Position numbers and translations under genes: made by a program
Shown here: piece by piece, positions 22,146 through 49,626 of the stretch
Layout: each line of letters starts with the position of its first letter
How positions within the stretch are numbered: the first letter of the stretch is position 1
The notes under the pieces: generated by a model
What the model saw: only the letters and a program-made list of their open reading frames with translations
The model's database searches: none
What the model was told of the DNA's origin: nothing
Assembly: GCA_947493535.1 (NCBI GenBank)
Contig: CANLRK010000008.1
Location: 1-64,000 of the forward strand
From: an uncultured Flavobacteriaceae bacterium
GTDB lineage: Bacteria > Bacteroidota > Bacteroidia > Flavobacteriales > Flavobacteriaceae
Direction: 5' to 3'
DNA length: 64,000 bases

Positions 22146-23576
22146 TTAATCATCTTCAGTAAAAAAATCATTACCAAAACCTATTAAATAAAGTTTTTCT
22201 TCAGCTCTTGTTATGGCAGTATATAGCCAGCGCATATAATCTTTACTTACACCATTTGGTAAATAAGGTTGTTCTACAAAAACAGTTTTCCACTGCCCCC
22301 CTTGTGATTTATGACATGTAATAGCATAGGAAAATTTAACTTGCAAAGCATTAAAGAACTTGTTCTGCTTTATTTTCATAAATCGTTTGTATTTGGTAGT
22401 TTCATTTTCATAATCTTTCTGAACTTCTTGATACAATCTATTACTATCTTCATAAGATAATGCGGGGGTTTCTGCATTAATTGTATCAAGCAATAATACG
22501 GTTTCAATGGCTTTCATATTAGGATAATCAACCATACGTACTTTTACTTCTGCAAAACGAAAGCCATACAACTCTTTAAAATTAAAAATTTCAAGTATTT
22601 CAATAATATCACCATTAGCAATAAAGCCAGCTTCGGAACTCTCTTTTATCCAAAAATAGTTATTTTTAACCACCATCAAATAATCACCAGCATTCAGATC
22701 ATTTTCTTGAAATAAAATTCTACCACGTATTTGTTGGTTATAAATATTCGCCCGTTTATTTGAACGTACAATTATAGCTGTATCTTCCTTTCCATTATGA
22801 GAGTACGCTTGATCTATAGCATTTTGAATTTCATAACCATCTTGCAAACGAACAATGTCTGTATAATTAGTTAAGTTAAACTGAAAAGAATCAAAAAACT
22901 CACTCGCCAACTGCTCCCGAAGTATCGTAGCATTACTTAAAATACCAGAATCTTCTGCTTGACGAACAACCTCGTCTAATTCAATAAAATCTACCTCTTT
23001 ATTATAGTTAAGTGCTAATTTATTTTCGTTTAAAGCTGGACTTACGTCTAACTTAACAGGAGGTAACTGCGCAGTATCGCCAATAAACACTAGTTTACAT
23101 TTGTGACCGGAATACACATATTGCAATAAATCATCTAATAGCGAACCATTATCAAATAATTTTGAATCGGTTGTTATATCAGATATCATCGATGCTTCAT
23201 CAACTATAAACACCGTGTTTTTATGTTTATTTGGTTGTAATACAAAAGATACTCCTCCACCTCGCTGTTTCTTGGGGAAATATATTTTTTTGTGTATTGT
23301 TAAAGCTTCGCGTTTAGCATATTTAGCTATTACTTTAGCTGCCCTACCCGTTGGTGCAAGTAACACAGCACTTTTATGAGCATGCCATAAATTGTTAACC
23401 AGCGTACTTATTAATGTAGTTTTTCCAGTTCCTGCATACCCCTTTAATACAAACAATTGATCTTGATTTGTATCAAAAATAAACGAGGCTAAACGCTGTA
23501 GTACAATATCTTGCTTTAAGGTTAAAGTATATGGAAATTTTTCAGTTAATAAGTTATGGAATTCAGTGGCTGTCAT
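22146..23576 (-). CDS. RecD2-like ATP-dependent DNA helicase
   Basis: 476 residues from the ATG at 23576. Superfamily 1 motifs: Walker A GYAGTGKTTL (about 48-57), APTGRAAKV, Walker B VFIVDEASM, GDTAQLPPV, and near the C-terminus the UvrD_C_2 block SYAITCHKSQGGQWKTVFVE followed by RWLYTAITRA. It lacks the long N-terminal domain of RecD2 and fits the short AAA_30/UvrD_C_2 helicases common in Bacteroidetes, presumably 5'-3' helicases acting in repair. An in-frame TTG at 23609 is excluded by an overlapping -7 element. Confidence 0.88.
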   Translation of the reverse strand: MTATEFHNLLTEKFPYTLTLKQDIVLQRLASFIFDTNQDQLFVLKGYAGTGKTTLISTLVNNLWHAHKSAVLLAPTGRAAKVIAKYAKREALTIHKKIYFPKKQRGGGVSFVLQPNKHKNTVFIVDEASMISDITTDSKLFDNGSLLDDLLQYVYSGHKCKLVFIGDTAQLPPVKLDVSPALNENKLALNYNKEVDFIELDEVVRQAEDSGILSNATILREQLASEFFDSFQFNLTNYTDIVRLQDGYEIQNAIDQAYSHNGKEDTAIIVRSNKRANIYNQQIRGRILFQENDLNAGDYLMVVKNNYFWIKESSEAGFIANGDIIEILEIFNFKELYGFRFAEVKVRMVDYPNMKAIETVLLLDTINAETPALSYEDSNRLYQEVQKDYENETTKYKRFMKIKQNKFFNALQVKFSYAITCHKSQGGQWKTVFVEQPYLPNGVSKDYMRWLYTAITRAEEKLYLIGFGNDFFTEDD

Positions 23577-38024: not shown

Positions 38025-38711
38025 ATGGGAAAGTGTCAACAATGTATAATTCGTCATTTCAATAGTTTTAAATCATTAACTACCGAAGAATTGACATGCA
38101 TATCAAATTCAAAGACAGAGGTTAACTTTAAAAAAGGGCAAGTTGTTTTTACCGAAGGTTCTTCTATAAATGGTGTTTTTTGTGTGAAATCTGGAAAATG
38201 TAAACTTTCTAAGCTAAATAGTAACGGTAAAGAGCAAATTGTACGATTTGTAAAAGGAGGCGATGTTTTAGGTTACCGTTCTGTAATTGTTAATGAGCCT
38301 GTAACACTTACAGTTACTGCTTTAGATGAAATGAAAGCTTGTTTTATACCTAAAGCTGAAATTTTTGATGCACTGGATAAAAATCCAAAGTTTATAATGG
38401 ATATGATGAAAACAGCATGTTCAGACTTAAAAGATGCTAACATGACGCTTTCAAAAATGGCGCAAAAAAATGTGCGTGAACGTTTAGCAGACGCATTATT
38501 GTTTTTACAAGAAACATTTGATGTTAATGAAGAAGGTTATATTGACATACAATTAAGTCGCGAAGAAATTTCAAGTATTATTGGTACAGCAACAGAATCT
38601 GCCATTAGGCTATTATCTGAGTTCAAAAAAGACGGACTCATAAACCTAAAAGGAAAAAACATTCAAATAATTAACACGCAGAAATTAAAAAATATTTCTG
38701 AAGGGTTTTAA
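38025..38711 (+). CDS. Fnr-like Crp-family transcriptional regulator
   Basis: 228 residues: cNMP-like sensor (about 20-130), dimer helix, C-terminal HTH (LSREEISSIIGTATESAIRLLSEFKKDG). Compared with E. coli FNR from memory, C4 and C7 align with C20 and C23 and C106 (MKACFIP) with C122, but the residue matching C29 is Asn13. FNR recognition residues E209 and R213 are kept (ESAIR), whereas S212 is Ile. The gene is divergent from ccoI with a shared Fnr-type box between them, which suggests it controls the cbb3 genes and itself. Confidence 0.9.
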   Translation: MGKCQQCIIRHFNSFKSLTTEELTCISNSKTEVNFKKGQVVFTEGSSINGVFCVKSGKCKLSKLNSNGKEQIVRFVKGGDVLGYRSVIVNEPVTLTVTALDEMKACFIPKAEIFDALDKNPKFIMDMMKTACSDLKDANMTLSKMAQKNVRERLADALLFLQETFDVNEEGYIDIQLSREEISSIIGTATESAIRLLSEFKKDGLINLKGKNIQIINTQKLKNISEGF

Positions 38712-44410: not shown

Positions 44411-44605
44411 TTATATGGGGAAATTAACTAATACTACTCTACTCTTATAATGAATAGCATTATGTACTTGCTCTTGTAATTTACCTATAACAACACTAGA
44501 TGTTATGGCGGAAGTTAGCTTTAAATTCTGATGTCTCATTCGATGAGCTGTTTTTAAGTTTGACTTCCTAAGCTTAAAAACATCAGAGATATAAACACGT
44601 TTCAT
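44411..44605 (-). CDS. Small basic hypothetical protein
   Basis: 64 residues from ATG 44605; a TTG three codons upstream is also in frame. Lys/Arg/His-rich in the first half (RKSNLKTAHRMRHQNLKL), with no signal peptide. The second half ends in a hydrophobic strand VVLVNFPI. No family recognised. The basic composition would suit a nucleic-acid-binding peptide, but a chance frame cannot be excluded. Confidence 0.4.
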   Translation of the reverse strand: MKRVYISDVFKLRKSNLKTAHRMRHQNLKLTSAITSSVVIGKLQEQVHNAIHYKSRVVLVNFPI

Positions 44606-44770
44606 AATGTTCAACTAAACCCATAATTGGGCACGAATCTTAAAGTAAAAGTAGTCTTTTTTTATATACAAAAAAGAAAAAAGATTTTTTTTTAGAAAAA
44701 AAATAAAAGAATGTTGTAAAAAACTGTGTAAGACCACTAAAACACTGTATAACAACAACTTAACAAATTG
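44606..44770. other. AT-rich gap
   Basis: About 165 bp, very AT-rich with runs of T (9) and A (8) near 44685-44703. I see no gene or clear signal. Confidence 0.3.
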
Positions 44771-45577
44771 TTATTTTAATACAAATTCCATATAAAATAT
44801 AAAGAATGCCATGATGAAGATAAAATATCCAAATGCTTTTTTTAGCTTTTGTCCATCAATAAACTTACTTAGGGTGTTTCCGATAAAAATACCTATAAAC
44901 GAAATTACCGTAAAACTAGTTAGAAAACCCCAATCTATATTTATAGTAAATGCATCTCCGAGGAAAAAGCCAAATAACGATTTTACAGCTATAATAATTA
45001 ATGATGTACCTACGGCTGTTTTCATTTCCACATTAGCCAATAATACTAATGCAGGGATAATTAAAAATCCACCACCAGCACCAATCAATCCGGTAATCGC
45101 TCCAACTATAATACCTTCTATAAGAATTAAAGGATAGTTATATTGTACTTGCTTAAGGTTGGATTCATTTTGTTTTTTAGGCTTTAACATTGATATACCA
45201 GCAGGAATCATTAGTAAAGCAAACAAACCAAACATTCCCATTCGGCGGGTAAAGTCAAAATCACCTACAGAAAATAATACATCTGGTAAAATAGGAATTA
45301 TATACTTTCTAACAGTAGTAACTCCAAGTAAGGCAGGTATTCCAAATACAATAGCTGTACGCCAATCTACATACCCTCTTAAATGTTGTTTTACCCCTCC
45401 TACTAAAGCACTAAATCCAACAATAAATAAAGAATAGGCTGTGGCTGTTTTTTCTTCTATAAGAAACAGATATGCTAAAACTGGTACGGCTAAAATTGAA
45501 CCACCACCACCAATTAGTCCTAAAGTTATTCCTATTACTAAGGCACTAATGTAGCCTAAAACTTCTAATAATTCCAT
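44771..45577 (-). CDS. TauE/SafE family sulfur-compound exporter
   Basis: 268 residues with about eight hydrophobic helices in two pseudo-symmetric halves: ALVIGITLGLIGGGGSILAVPVLAYLF near the N-terminus and GIIVGAITGLIGAGGGFLIIPALVLLA in the middle, the glycine-rich repeats of the TauE/SafE family. These move sulfite, sulfoacetate or related anions out of the cell. It is preceded by a GTAACN4GTTAC palindrome and follows the Crp/Fnr gene by 74 bp. Confidence 0.9.
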   Translation of the reverse strand: MELLEVLGYISALVIGITLGLIGGGGSILAVPVLAYLFLIEEKTATAYSLFIVGFSALVGGVKQHLRGYVDWRTAIVFGIPALLGVTTVRKYIIPILPDVLFSVGDFDFTRRMGMFGLFALLMIPAGISMLKPKKQNESNLKQVQYNYPLILIEGIIVGAITGLIGAGGGFLIIPALVLLANVEMKTAVGTSLIIIAVKSLFGFFLGDAFTINIDWGFLTSFTVISFIGIFIGNTLSKFIDGQKLKKAFGYFIFIMAFFIFYMEFVLK

Positions 45578-45601
45578 TTAATATCTTGTCCTTAATTACA
45601 G

Positions 45602-45645
45602 TAAAAGTACTACTGTTTATGCGTCTATCAAGTAACATATGTTAC
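45602..45645 (-). promoter_or_regulatory. Sulfur-regulator operator and -7 element of the TauE/SafE gene
   Basis: GTAACATATGTTAC (45632-45645) is a perfect palindrome; its centre (45638.5) is exactly 33 bp from the centre of minus-strand TACTTTTA (45602-45609, one mismatch to TAnnTTTG). Predicted start near 45598, about 21 nt before the ATG. Confidence 0.6.
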
Positions 45646-45651
45646 CTATGT

Positions 45652-46284
45652 TTACAAGGCTATTATTTTTATATAATTACGATGTAATTTTATTTTACCT
45701 TGATTTTCTAGTTTTTTTAATAACCTAGATATCACAACTCGTGAAGTATGTAACTCATACGCTATTTCTTGATGAGTACTTTTAACAATATCCTCTTTAG
45801 TAATGCTAACTTTATCTTTAAGATACTTTAGTAAACGCTCATCCATTTTTAAAAAAGCGATACTATCTATTGTAGTAAGCATTTCCATCAATCTACCATG
45901 ATAACTTTCAAAAACAAAATTTCGCCAACTTTTGTACTTCCCTGTCCACTCTTCCATTTTCTGAATAGGAATCATGATAAGTTTAGTATTTAATTCAGTT
46001 ACTGCTTTAACTTCACTTTTTTTATTCCCTAAACAACAAGATAATGTCATGGCACAAGTATCTCCTTTTTCTAAAAAGTACAACAGTAATTCATCACCAT
46101 TATCATCTTCTCTTAATATTTTAATAGCCCCCTCTAATAGCAATGGCATAGATCGTATATACTGGCCTGTATCCATTATTTGAACTCCTTCATCAAACTC
46201 TTTAAGCACACCTATTTGGCTTATTTCCTCCAAAAGCTCTTGCTCAAATAAGTAACCGTAATGTTGTTTTAATTCTTGATTCAT
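45652..46284 (-). CDS. Crp/Fnr-family regulator of the sulfur cluster
   Basis: 210 residues: cNMP-like sensor (1-about 120), dimer helix and C-terminal HTH (HQEIAYELHTSRVVISRLLKKLENQGKI). Cysteines C77, C83 and C84 lie in GDTCAMTLSCCLGNK, near the sensor pocket. No N-terminal CxxC exists, so it is not an FNR-type iron-sulfur protein. In the recognition helix the FNR glutamate is replaced by Val (RVVISR), with Ser and Arg retained. Neighbours are sulfur transporters with GTAACN4GTTAC sites. A thiol or persulfide sensor is a reasonable inference, not shown. Confidence 0.88.
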   Translation of the reverse strand: MNQELKQHYGYLFEQELLEEISQIGVLKEFDEGVQIMDTGQYIRSMPLLLEGAIKILREDDNGDELLLYFLEKGDTCAMTLSCCLGNKKSEVKAVTELNTKLIMIPIQKMEEWTGKYKSWRNFVFESYHGRLMEMLTTIDSIAFLKMDERLLKYLKDKVSITKEDIVKSTHQEIAYELHTSRVVISRLLKKLENQGKIKLHRNYIKIIAL

Positions 46285-46329
46285 GGGTTAAAAATAATGT
46301 AATTTTAATAGTTATATATAGAAAGAATT

Positions 46330-46743
46330 CTAATGTGGTAATTTATTTTTTAATAAGCCATAAAACCATGTTCCTAACAAAGCACCAATAATAACTATTA
46401 CAATAGGTAAAAAGCCTGCTCCTACAAGAGTAAACATAGGCCCTGGGCAAGCACCAGCTAATGCCCAGCCTAAACCAAAAATAATCCCACCTATTAAGTA
46501 ACGCGCCACACTACGATCTTTATCTATAAAACGAATTGGATTACCGTCTATAGTTTTCACATTCAATCTTTTAATTAATTGCACCATAATAACGCCAAAC
46601 ACAAGCGAGGAACCAATAATACCATACATATGAAATGACTTAAACTGAAACATCTCATATATTCTAAACCATGATGCTGCTTCTGATTTTAGCATTACAA
46701 CACCAAAGAAAATGCCTATTAATAAATATAGTATACCTCTCAT
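46330..46743 (-). CDS. YeeE/YedE family transporter, second half
   Basis: 137 residues with four helices. FGLGWALAGACPGPMFTLVGAGF carries the conserved Cys of the YeeE/YedE (TsuA) family, in which thiosulfate passes along cysteines. In this split form two separate small proteins are predicted to supply the two halves of one transporter. It starts 2 bp after the stop of its partner and 45 bp before the regulator. Confidence 0.88.
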   Translation of the reverse strand: MRGILYLLIGIFFGVVMLKSEAASWFRIYEMFQFKSFHMYGIIGSSLVFGVIMVQLIKRLNVKTIDGNPIRFIDKDRSVARYLIGGIIFGLGWALAGACPGPMFTLVGAGFLPIVIVIIGALLGTWFYGLLKNKLPH

Positions 46744-46745
46744 AA

Positions 46746-47303
46746 TTAAAATAGTATTGGAAATATTAAATGAATCATTATCAACCCACCTATAAAAAAC
46801 CCGACAACGGCTATTAATGATGGAAGCTGTAAATTACTTAATCCAGAAATTGCATGACCAGAAGTACACCCACCAGCATAACGAGCACCAAAACCAACTA
46901 AAAGGCCACCAATTAAAAGTAATACTATACTTTTCGGGTTACTCAATATGTCATTACCATATAATTCAGTAGGTAAATAACTAGTTCCTGCACTTTTAAA
47001 ACCTAAATCTTGTAATTCATTAACTACTTCAGAATTAAGTAACGGAGCCACATCACCAGACATAAAATTTACAGCTAAAAAACCACCTATGGCTGCCCCA
47101 AGTATAACTACTAAATTCCAGCGATCATTTCTCCAATCAAAACAAAAGAAATCACAAGTTTTGTCAGCGCCAAAAGCTGCACATAAAGTTCGTAAGTTCG
47201 AAGACATTCCAAATTTTTTCCCTATAAATAACAACATAAACATTGTTAAAGTTATCAGAGGACCGGCTATATACCAAGGAATGGGTTGTTGTATGATATC
47301 CAT
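46746..47303 (-). CDS. YeeE/YedE family transporter, first half
   Basis: 185 residues from the ATG at 47303. An in-frame TTG at 47324 lies inside the -7 element (TATGTTTG), so it cannot be the start. About five helices. GFGARYAGGCTSGHAISGLSNLQLPSLIAVVGFFIGG is the conserved Cys-containing YeeE block; two further cysteines occur in TCDFFCFDW. Expected to import thiosulfate or a related sulfur species. Heads the operon yeeE1-yeeE2-crp/fnr, with tauE probably following under its own promoter as well. Confidence 0.88.
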   Translation of the reverse strand: MDIIQQPIPWYIAGPLITLTMFMLLFIGKKFGMSSNLRTLCAAFGADKTCDFFCFDWRNDRWNLVVILGAAIGGFLAVNFMSGDVAPLLNSEVVNELQDLGFKSAGTSYLPTELYGNDILSNPKSIVLLLIGGLLVGFGARYAGGCTSGHAISGLSNLQLPSLIAVVGFFIGGLIMIHLIFPILF

Positions 47304-47321
47304 AATATTTTTTTTACAATG

Positions 47322-47365
47322 CAAACATAGCTCCTAAAAAAAGCTTTGGAAGTAACTTTTGATAC
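47322..47365 (-). promoter_or_regulatory. Sulfur-regulator operator and -7 element of the YeeE operon
   Basis: GTAACTTTTGATAC (47352-47365) matches GTAACN4GTTAC with one mismatch; its centre (47358.5) is exactly 33 bp from the centre of minus-strand TATGTTTG (47322-47329, exact consensus). Predicted start near 47318, about 15 nt before the ATG at 47303. Confidence 0.65.
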
Positions 47366-47393
47366 ATAATAATTATTACAAATAGTCCGTAAT

Positions 47394-47469
47394 AAAAAAA
47401 GAGTAAACCCATTTGTAATGAGTTTACTCTTTTAAAGTATGTAATAACCATTTTGGGGCATAGTTATGA
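47394..47469 (-). ncRNA. Candidate small RNA with its own operator-controlled promoter
   Basis: A -7 element (TAAATTTG, 47472-47479) preceded by a perfect palindrome would start a transcript near 47468. About 75 nt further on, AAAGAGTAAACTCATT pairs with AATGGGTTTACTCTTT (one G-U pair) around ACA, followed by seven T (47394-47432), a typical intrinsic terminator. The 5' part has an unpaired CCCC and a weak hairpin (ATAAC/GTTAT). Only a nine-codon frame (ATG at 47462) is present. The alternative is a leader attenuator for yeeE, but yeeE has its own promoter downstream. Confidence 0.4.
47398..47433 (-). terminator. Intrinsic terminator of the candidate small RNA
   Basis: A 16-bp stem with a 3-base loop followed by TTTTTTT on the minus strand. 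It lies between rnpB and the YeeE promoter. Confidence 0.7.
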
Positions 47470-47471
47470 TT

Positions 47472-47519
47472 CAAATTTATAACTAATTAATCATTAGTTA
47501 AGTAACAATTGTTACTTAA
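47472..47519 (-). promoter_or_regulatory. Sulfur-regulator operator and -7 element without a protein gene
   Basis: A perfect 22-bp palindrome (47498-47519) with core GTAACAATTGTTAC (47502-47515); its centre (47508.5) is exactly 33 bp from the centre of minus-strand TAAATTTG (47472-47479, exact consensus). This is the strongest of the three GTAACN4GTTAC sites, yet the first thing downstream is a terminator. Confidence 0.6.
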
Positions 47520-47538
47520 GAGGTAAATATTAAAAAAT

Positions 47539-47836
47539 AAGCAGGCAATAAGCCGGATTCTGTACCTAAAAAGGCCCTTATCATTTATCTAGTACTATAA
47601 TTACTTATAGCATCAAACCGTTTACCCTCCAACATTGGGCGTACAGCCCTCAAACGCTGGTATACATAACGTTGCACCACATAGAGTTTACCTGATTTCA
47701 CTACAGCATTACCTGTACATACTTTCTGTTGCACTTGTCCGCGTCTCACGACGGACGGGCATTACCCGCTATATTGTACTATGGTGTCCGGACTTTCCTC
47801 TCTTCTTTTCAGAACAGCGATAAGGTAGCCTGCTTA
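47539..47836 (-). ncRNA. rnpB: RNase P RNA
   Basis: On the minus strand the bacterial class A RNase P RNA signatures are present: GAGGAAAGTCCGGAC near the 5' end, and the AGAATCCGGCTTA tail near the 3' end. P1 is formed by AAGCAGGC (47835-47828) and GCCTGCTT (47546-47539), followed by TTATTTTTTA, so the RNA can end at its own stem plus U-run. It is the catalytic RNA that matures tRNA 5' ends. An overlapping plus-strand frame at 47635 is a chance ORF. Confidence 0.95.
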
Positions 47837-47914
47837 GCGCAAAAATACATTTAAAATGTTAATAACTACACGGAAAATTATTAATTCTTAAATCAATAAT
47901 CACGTTTGAATTTT

Positions 47915-47922
47915 TATATTTG
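47915..47922 (+). promoter_or_regulatory. -7 promoter element for dnaX
   Basis: TATATTTG, exact match, 18 nt before the ATG. Confidence 0.5.
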
Positions 47923-47940
47923 TGAAGCTAATTTTTTTCA

Positions 47941-49626
47941 ATGGAACACTTTGTAGTATCAGCTAGAAAATACCGCCCAAAAACATTTAATGATGTTGTT
48001 GGTCAACAAGCTATTACCAATACTTTATTAAATGCTATTGAAAACAATCACTTGGCACAAGCCTTATTATTTTGTGGTCCCAGAGGAGTTGGAAAAACTT
48101 CTTGTGCCAGAATATTAGCCAAAAAAATTAATCATCAAGAAGGTCATGATGATAAAAATGAAGATTTTGCCTTTAATGTTTTTGAATTAGATGCTGCTTC
48201 TAACAATTCTGTTGATGATATACGTAGCTTGATAGATCAGGTTCGTATACCACCACAAGTTGGAAGCTATAAAGTATATATTATTGATGAGGTACACATG
48301 TTATCTCAAGCAGCCTTTAATGCCTTTTTAAAAACTTTAGAGGAACCACCTAAGCATGCTATATTCATTTTAGCTACTACAGAAAAACATAAAATAATAC
48401 CTACAATATTATCACGTTGTCAGATTTTTGATTTCAAGCGTATAACTGTAAAAGACACTGCTAAATATCTAGCTTATATTGCCGAAGAACAAGGAATTAC
48501 TGCTGAAGATGATGCCTTACATATTATAGCTCAAAAAGCAGATGGTGCTATGCGTGACGCTTTATCTATTTTTGATCGGGTGGTAAGTTTTTCGGGTAAA
48601 AATCTTACACGACAAGCCGTAACCGAAAACTTAAATGTTCTTGATTACGACACCTATTTTAAAGCTACCAATTTAATTCTTGAAAATAATATTCCTGAAT
48701 TACTACTATTATTTAATGACTGTTTATCAAAAGGGTTTGATGGACATCATTTTATAGCTGGTTTGGCGTCGCACTTTAGAGATTTGTTAGTATGTAAAAA
48801 CCAAAGTACTATACAATTACTTGAAGTAGGTAGCAATGCTCAACAGCACTATGCAGAGCAATCACAAAAAACGAGCCTTCCTTTTTTACTTGAAGGTATA
48901 GAAAAAGCCAATCAATGTGATTTAAGCTACAAAACCAGTAAAAACCAACGCTTACTTGTTGAACTTTGCTTAATGCAATTGGCCTCTATCACTTTTGATG
49001 GAGAAAAAAAAAAGTCTAAAAACTTTATAGTTCCAGCTACATTTTTTGTTACTACACAAGCTAAAAAATCTACAGTAGTTCAAGAGCCTACACCAAAACT
49101 AGAAAAGCCTAAGTTTGTAGCTCCCCCCTTACCTAAACCTCCTATAACTACCCCTAAAAAAGGAAAAGTATCAGGTTTATCATTAGCTAGTGTTAGAAAA
49201 AAACAAGAGTTTTTAAAAGAAAAGCAAGCTGAAGAAACACAACATATAGAGTTACCTACGGAAGATTTTAAAACGGAAGATTTAATTACCTACTGGCGCG
49301 AATATGTTACTGCTTTAGAGCAAAAGGGAGAAAAAATTATTGCTTCAATATTAAATATCAAAGACCTTAATGTACAAGGAACCGTTATACATATTGAATT
49401 ACCTAACGAAACCATGAAAATAGATGTAGAGCGTGCACAACACGCTTTACTAGCTAATTTAAGAAAACGCTTAAGTAACTACGATATAACTATTCAGACT
49501 ACGGTAAATGAAGAAATTCAAAAAAAATACATTTTTTCAGCTACTGATACTTATGAAAAATTTAAAGAGATTAACCCTGTAATTGATTTATTACGTCGGG
49601 AGTTTAATTTAGATATAAAAAACTAA
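47941..49626 (+). CDS. dnaX: DNA polymerase III subunit gamma/tau
   Basis: 561 residues. Starts SARKYRPKTFNDVVGQQAITNTLLNAI; Walker A GPRGVGKTSCARILA, Walker B IIDEVHMLSQAAFNAFLKTLEEPP, sensor IFILATTEKHKIIPTILSRCQ. The zinc-binding cysteines usual between Walker A and VFELDAASNNSVDDIR are missing and replaced by a charged loop (EGHDDKNEDFAF), which I recall as common in Flavobacteriia. The C-terminal part is Pro/Lys-rich then folded. Loads the sliding clamp in replication. miaE follows after 4 bp. Confidence 0.93.
   Translation: MEHFVVSARKYRPKTFNDVVGQQAITNTLLNAIENNHLAQALLFCGPRGVGKTSCARILAKKINHQEGHDDKNEDFAFNVFELDAASNNSVDDIRSLIDQVRIPPQVGSYKVYIIDEVHMLSQAAFNAFLKTLEEPPKHAIFILATTEKHKIIPTILSRCQIFDFKRITVKDTAKYLAYIAEEQGITAEDDALHIIAQKADGAMRDALSIFDRVVSFSGKNLTRQAVTENLNVLDYDTYFKATNLILENNIPELLLLFNDCLSKGFDGHHFIAGLASHFRDLLVCKNQSTIQLLEVGSNAQQHYAEQSQKTSLPFLLEGIEKANQCDLSYKTSKNQRLLVELCLMQLASITFDGEKKKSKNFIVPATFFVTTQAKKSTVVQEPTPKLEKPKFVAPPLPKPPITTPKKGKVSGLSLASVRKKQEFLKEKQAEETQHIELPTEDFKTEDLITYWREYVTALEQKGEKIIASILNIKDLNVQGTVIHIELPNETMKIDVERAQHALLANLRKRLSNYDITIQTTVNEEIQKKYIFSATDTYEKFKEINPVIDLLRREFNLDIKN

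Follow-up and report, generated by a model that had tools for sequence, protein, structure and literature searches.

The regulatory system analyzed here lies at positions 44,771 to 47,519 of a 64,000-nucleotide stretch from an uncultured Flavobacteriaceae bacterium (contig CANLRK010000008.1, assembly GCA_947493535.1; the whole stretch is referred to as the window), and its closest described counterparts are the cst operon of Staphylococcus aureus and the sulfide response of Acinetobacter baumannii. The cst operon comprises CstR, CstB, sulfide-quinone reductase (SQR) and TauE. In the available excerpts of PMC7315123, the FisR regulon of A. baumannii includes persulfide dioxygenase, SQR and TauE, BigR controls the yeeE-yedE-pdo2 operon, CydAB is sulfide-induced, and Crp is reported to be persulfidated, with an effect not known there. 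The flavobacterial system uses the same kit as the cst operon, i.e., TauE and a metallo-beta-lactamase (MBL)-rhodanese persulfide dioxygenase, with SQR in relatives, and has YeeE/PmpAB, DUF983 and peroxiredoxin in addition; its targets also parallel the gene set of A. baumannii, as far as the excerpts of PMC7315123 go. The regulators differ. That of cst is a CsoR-type repressor, and those of A. baumannii are a sigma54 activator (FisR) and an ArsR-family SqrR homologue (BigR) in the excerpts of PMC7315123 and PMC9774590, whereas the protein encoded here belongs to the Crp/Fnr family and its operators are predicted to be centred at -41.5. We consider it quite likely that the cluster controls a sulfide/persulfide-detoxification regulon that is widespread in Flavobacteriaceae and is governed by a Crp/Fnr-family class II activator with probable cysteine sensing.

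Fold and class II geometry are common to this regulator and to CRP and FNR of Escherichia coli, but FNR and CRP read the half-sites TTGAT or TGTGA, whereas the half-site here is GTAAC and the regulator is without the four-cysteine cluster motif. NtcA of cyanobacteria, which senses 2-oxoglutarate, likewise has the Crp/Fnr fold, and its recognition helix (RVTVTR) aligns with RVVISR of the regulator; the NtcA site, GTAN8TAC, has the same outer bases as GTAACN4GTTAC and the same use at -41.5, but no NtcA cysteine aligns with C77, C83 or C84 of the regulator. As in the PmpA/PmpB split YeeE transporters (excerpts of PMC11582611), the transporter is encoded here by two half-size genes, with a cysteine in the matching motif of each half, a correspondence judged by eye; the regulator is a different one.

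A known response, sulfide/persulfide detoxification, would here be under a regulator family that is unreported for it in the literature searched. No report of the regulon was met in that literature, which consisted chiefly of open papers, so that absence from print is not implied. Flavobacteria are abundant in the sea, and sulfide sensing in them was not described in the literature found. The persulfide sensors met there, in part through excerpts, were CsoR-type CstR, ArsR-type SqrR/BigR and sigma54-dependent FisR; a Crp/Fnr-type activator, if real, would add a different fold and mechanism to persulfide sensing.

Operators and promoter boxes of the cluster

The original prediction, made from the letters of the window, was that three GTAACN4GTTAC sites precede a TauE/SafE gene, a YeeE/YedE pair and a promoter without a gene, each with its centre 33 bp from a -7 element. 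The sites were found where it had placed them: two are perfect, the one at 47352 has one mismatch, and each lies exactly 22 bp ahead of a minus-strand -7 box, with a measured distance of 33 bp between box centre and palindrome centre at all three.

45632..45645, no strand assigned: operator GTAACATATGTTAC of tauE, perfect palindrome
45602..45609, minus strand: -7 box TACTTTTA of the tauE promoter, 1 mismatch to TAnnTTTG; predicted start about 45597
47352..47365, no strand assigned: operator of pmpA-pmpB-crp, GTAACTTTTGATAC, read on the minus strand as GTATCAAAAGTTAC; 1 mismatch
47322..47329, minus strand: -7 box TATGTTTG of the pmpA promoter; predicted start about 47317
47502..47515, no strand assigned: operator GTAACAATTGTTAC of the 'gene-less' promoter, perfect palindrome
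47472..47479, minus strand: -7 box TAAATTTG of the 'gene-less' promoter; predicted start about 47467

Class II activators such as CRP and FNR act from position -41.5. The starts 45597, 47317 and 47467 were inferred from the position of the housekeeping box TAnnTTTG in Flavobacterium psychrophilum, which is -12 to -5 in the available excerpts of PMC9723704. With the box so placed, a 22-bp spacer makes the palindrome span -48 to -35, so that its centre falls at -41.5, and with these predicted starts the three promoters have the arrangement of class II promoters.

In the window, the palindrome by itself was modestly enriched (7 sites with at most one mismatch vs. 2.19 expected), and we rejected it as evidence because, genome-wide at the same threshold, it occurred 106 times vs. 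95 for a reversed control. The composite of palindrome, spacing and box with at most one mismatch in its 16 fixed bases was found three times in the window vs. a mean of 0.003 and a maximum of 1 in 300 dinucleotide shuffles. When up to three mismatches were allowed, enrichment of the composite disappeared genome-wide (53 vs. 59 in the control). The discriminating signal is therefore the palindrome with its spacing and box at no more than one mismatch, and not the palindrome by itself.

A genome-wide search for this composite (box TAnnTTTG), as the original prediction had proposed, returned six sites in the 2.3-Mb host genome, three of them in the window. The other three precede genes for an MBL-fold plus rhodanese protein (locus L001), a DUF983-like protein (L018), which falls in the same cluster as a DUF983 representative scanned against Pfam, and a di-haem cytochrome c peroxidase (L003). 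With the box rewritten as TANNTTTR, seven composites with at most one mismatch were found in the host vs. none in the control, and the counts in three other genomes of the genus were 4 vs. 3, 8 vs. 2 and 14 vs. 0. Two further perfect palindromes in the host (L002 and L004) were set aside since both lack a -7 box at the required distance and L002 falls within an open reading frame; the site at C3:251684 (L022, two mismatches) was left out as possibly due to chance.

Conservation of operator, spacing and regulator

We examined 120 Flavobacteriaceae genomes sampled from a larger group, with the reversed pattern as control. The exact composite occurred in 86 of the 120 genomes (252 sites vs. 3 for the control), and the regulator had a match at E <=1e-20 in 103. 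Of the 72 genomes that have a close orthologue (best E <=1.6e-74), 71 contained a site, as did 13 of 23 with an intermediate one, 1 of 8 with a distant one and 1 of 17 without any; the bounds of these groups were drawn after the values were known. At the scale of the phylum, the regulator model matched 74 of 198 genomes and the exact site was found in 17 of 198, with no control matches listed. The original prediction had proposed a separate sulfur regulon with this operator and a fixed geometry, under the control of the Crp/Fnr protein encoded alongside; as far as genome comparison can show, sites, spacing, gene content and co-occurrence all lend it strong support.

That some other DNA-binding protein reads the palindrome, with the Crp/Fnr gene an incidental neighbour, would agree with the one regulator-less genome that has a site. 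We consider this highly improbable: site presence tracks the regulator (71/72 vs. 2/25), a 14-bp spaced palindrome at -41.5 is a Crp/Fnr type of site, and among the five proteins with a cNMP domain found in the host genome SRVVISR occurs in this regulator only, the other four having different helices.

Gap and spacer are both narrowly defined. In 40 loci of relatives, 88 palindromes had the 4-bp gap, whereas every other gap length between 0 and 11 accounted for three at most. A box (at most one mismatch) followed at spacer 22 in 80 of the 88, and these were spread over 36 of the 40 loci; the next best spacer accounted for 9 of 176 orientations. The best 80 of 589 loci, referred to as the named loci, include Polaribacter, Bizionia, Maribacter, Cellulophaga, Aquimarina and Dokdonia, and have sequence in common with 7 of the 40 loci above. 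Here, 158 of 172 palindromes had the box at 22, with at least one such site in 76 of 80 loci, and 160 oriented matches fell at spacer 22 vs. at most 15 at any other. Among the intermediate loci (L111-L128), all 18 adjoin YeeE genes and 13 have a site at the same spacing, often degenerate. The one-mismatch operator variant of pmpA recurs before pmpA at spacer 22 in genome G060 and locus L166, and at spacer 21 in L165 and L167.

This rigidity bears on whether the regulator might instead be a repressor that blocks polymerase until a sulfur species releases it, in the manner of CstR and SqrR, which are dedicated persulfide sensors and both repressors according to the excerpts of PMC9774590. The position of a repressor site would be less constrained, while the fixed-spacing box of 80 of the 88 palindromes puts their centres at the class II activator position of -41.5, and repression thus appears improbable to us. 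If the sites are those of an activator, their rigid spacing would make these promoters a clean model system for activator-dependent transcription in Bacteroidetes, a group with a -7 box unlike the one used by other bacteria.

Genes downstream of the operators

Gene assignment was mechanical, i.e., the longest frame starting at most 260 bases away was taken. Among 135 sites from overlapping loci, 131 had an assigned gene and 4 had none, and the 131 were reduced to 119 unique site-gene pairs. Pfam scans covered one representative each from 10 of the 24 clusters, the other members were named by cluster, and the TauE and YeeE types were identified from the window's own proteins. The 119 pairs comprised 36 MBL-rhodanese or single rhodanese genes, 26 TauE, 9 PmpA-like YeeE, 7 SQR-like, 6 1-Cys peroxiredoxin, 5 DUF983 and 2 genes for the regulator itself; cytochrome bd subunit I (CydA), fatty acid hydroxylase, cytochrome c, SulP and outer-membrane efflux protein had three pairs each, and the rest were rarer.

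The MBL-rhodanese protein of the host has its sequence kin among solved MBL-rhodanese proteins, the BpPRF fusion and ETHE1, with 3tp9 and 3r2u (CstB) as the best matches in the PDB. One SQR-like protein is sequence kin of solved sulfide-quinone reductases. Judged by site position, persulfide dioxygenase, SQR and TauE genes all stand under this operator, and the sequences indicate that the downstream genes share one sulfide/persulfide theme.

DUF983-like genes recur as members (loci L018, L082, L085 and L137, and genome G121); no description of a role for DUF983 in sulfur stress was met, and no literature search was aimed at one. Fatty acid hydroxylase-like genes with the same operator and box were seen at L081, L090 and L151.

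The window's own putative target genes and the regulator gene are:

44771..45577, minus strand: tauE, TauE/SafE-family permease, 268 amino acids; Pfam TauE E 1.4e-38; own site and -7 box upstream
45652..46284, minus strand: Crp/Fnr-family regulator, 210 amino acids; Pfam HTH_Crp_2 and cNMP_binding; helix SRVVISRLLK
46330..46743, minus strand: second yeeE gene, PmpB-like, GACPGP motif, C99; Pfam Sulf_transp E 1.1e-9
46746..47303, minus strand: first yeeE gene, PmpA-like, AGGCTSGH motif, C146; Pfam Sulf_transp E 6.8e-16

The start of the first yeeE gene (pmpA) was set at ATG 47303 because TTG 47324 sits upstream of the predicted transcription start. Both yeeE halves matched NCBIfam TsuA weakly (model positions 6-103 for the PmpB-like and 268-328 for the PmpA-like protein) and scored far below its curated cut-off (43.6 and 23.6 bits vs. 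400), as split genes of the PmpAB type.

The regulator and its putative signal

The regulator belongs to the Crp/Fnr superfamily, with PF00027 and PF13545 above cut-off and CRP-family structures as the best Foldseek matches. Its scores stayed under the cut-offs of the curated families within it, at 52.5 bits vs. 266 for CRP (NF008732) and 41.4 vs. 244.95 for NtcA (TIGR03697), and the curated FNR cut-off was not reached either. Among proteins of solved structure, 3dv8 and NtcA (2xgx, E 4.5e-10) come nearest in sequence. Reading of the protein sequence agreed with the original prediction that its only cysteines are C77, C83 and C84 and that its helix is SRVVISRLLK, and the four-cysteine [4Fe-4S] signature of FNR is therefore lacking. 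C77 is present in 63 of 63 aligned regulator sequences, C83 in 56 and C84 in 58. An alignment of 47 of these 63, none without C83 or C84, served as input for the AlphaFold model, the 589-locus search and the phylum-scale search, and its invariant cysteines are no independent evidence of conservation.

The AlphaFold model, with a mean pLDDT of 88 overall and about 75 for residues 71-90, places the three cysteines in a loop and short helix that follow the strand 65-71, at the position of the phosphate-binding cassette in CRP; the phosphate-binding residues of CRP appear to be lost at residues 78-79. Since the sole cysteines are mostly conserved and the targets handle sulfide and persulfide, thiol or persulfide sensing through C77, C83 and C84 is a plausible hypothesis.

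The same regulon and operator might instead respond to another signal, such as a small molecule or haem gas (NO, CO) bound in the pocket, or thiosulfate or sulfite. Crp/Fnr proteins commonly bind small ligands, the cytochrome bd, cytochrome c and di-haem peroxidase targets of some genomes would also fit NO or low oxygen, and three relatives (L114, L118 and L128) keep C77 only. Against this, C77, C83 and C84 are the sole cysteines and mostly conserved, the commonest targets act on persulfide and sulfite, and sulfide likewise induces cytochrome bd in A. baumannii, according to the excerpts of PMC7315123. On balance, a non-thiol signal seems rather unlikely to us. The same three relatives are natural tests of which cysteine matters. 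Two more distant Crp/Fnr paralogues (L129 and L130, 43-45% identity) have C77 plus one cysteine further on; the queries used found no sulfur genes in their vicinity.

We return to the activator with cysteine sensing, and describe how it might work. The palindrome GTAACN4GTTAC, centred at -41.5, is most likely bound by a dimer of the Crp/Fnr protein (45652-46284), which would recruit the housekeeping polymerase as a class II activator; we infer binding, activation and autoregulation from the sequence patterns. pmpAB would be switched on for import of a sulfur species, the regulator's own gene would be switched on via read-through, and tauE would be switched on for sulfite/thiosulfate export. 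Distal targets in the host would be the CstB-like persulfide dioxygenase-rhodanese, the DUF983 protein and the di-haem cytochrome c peroxidase, and those of related genomes would add SQR, peroxiredoxin and cytochrome bd. The cysteines of the former phosphate-binding cassette (C77, C83 and C84) are the probable sensing residues and would be persulfidated or bridged when sulfane sulfur rises. The regulon would offer a ready operator, a named list of targets and three cysteines for mutation.

Several observations weigh against this reading. The co-occurrence counts ignore shared descent, and their groups were set post hoc; the exact site is absent from 10 of the 23 genomes with an intermediate regulator, while 1 of the 17 regulator-less genomes nonetheless carries one. 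Near the regulator, no site with up to two mismatches was found in 5 of the 18 intermediate loci (L111, L112, L118, L120 and L128). The spacer of the pmpA operator is 21, not 22, in the Polaribacter loci L165 and L167, and in G060, a genome of the same genus, one-mismatch composites number 4 vs. 3 in the control. L114, L118 and L128 adjoin YeeE genes and yet are without C83 and C84. No genome other than the host was seen to have the cytochrome c peroxidase target, and one query found no SQR in the host, a result that is weak by itself.

Half-site and recognition helix

The original prediction saw the GTAAC half-site as in keeping with loss of the Glu of the recognition helix that reads TGA. 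In agreement with this, half-sites of close loci with the Val helix were 162 A (GTAAC) vs. 6 G, and those of Glu-helix loci leaned to GTGAC (8 G vs. 4 A). The intermediate Val-helix group was mixed, however (6 A vs. 8 G), so this residue would contribute at most in part, and the idea that the change from Glu to Val alone accounts for the new half-site was only partly upheld. Among the 20 extra loci used for this comparison, 14 have a Glu helix and 3 a Val helix, and 3 (L289-L291), unmatched by the pattern, were dropped; no box-linked site was found in the three with a Val helix.

The 'gene-less' promoter and a candidate short RNA

The third promoter of the cluster lies between pmpA and rnpB, and the segment concerned has these features:

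47393..47467, minus strand: candidate 75-nt RNA with two hairpins; minimum free energy -23.3 kcal/mol, z -5.9 (47393-47466)
47433-47397, minus strand: terminator-like hairpin, 17-bp stem plus T run; the sole such site in 44600-48000
47534..47836, minus strand: rnpB, RNase P RNA class A; Rfam RF00010, 206.6 bits; upstream neighbour outside the regulon

The description of this promoter as gene-less held insofar as no gene follows directly, but it leads into a 75-nt segment with a terminator-like hairpin. It is better read as a promoter that may drive a short terminated RNA or a leader. No shuffle of 47393-47466 folded as stably; the number of terminator-like sites in the 3.4-kb region (1 vs. a mean of 1.4 in shuffles) is unremarkable, and it is the strength of the fold, not the count, that constitutes evidence. 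The rnpB gene just upstream has its own T run at the mature end.

A search of the 120 family genomes found no homologue of the 47393-47467 RNA; nine genomes other than the host gave only short partial matches (E 2.3e-4 to 0.008), of which the two inspected (L158 and L159) had no perfect palindrome. No composite (palindrome with at most three mismatches, box with at most one) lay within 900 bases of rnpB in G060 and G120, and rnpB was not found in G121. As the RNA was not found in relatives, it would be recent or non-functional.

A different arrangement, in which the promoter at 47502 is a second, upstream pmpA promoter with an attenuator (47397-47433) in its leader and there is no RNA gene, is possible but in our estimation less likely than not. 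The promoter points at pmpA, the hairpin lies in between, and a nine-codon open reading frame (MPQNGYYIL) within 47393-47467 on the minus strand precedes the hairpin; downstream of the hairpin, however, pmpA is preceded by a site and box of its own.

Taken furthest, the short terminated RNA would be a sulfur-induced extra arm of the regulon in this genome, under a Crp/Fnr subfamily that senses sulfane sulfur through cysteines in its phosphate-binding cassette and acts as master activator of sulfide/persulfide defence in Flavobacteriaceae. We offer this proposal tentatively, at somewhat short of an even chance.

FNR-type elements elsewhere in the window

No FNR operator (TTGATN4ATCAA, at most one mismatch) was found between 43864 and 48736, and the sole perfect one in the window is at 23463-23476. 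A second Crp/Fnr protein is encoded at 38121-38384 on the plus strand (L295); it is FNR-like, with several cysteines and the helix GTATESAIRLLSEF, and is possibly the Fnr to which the original prediction referred.

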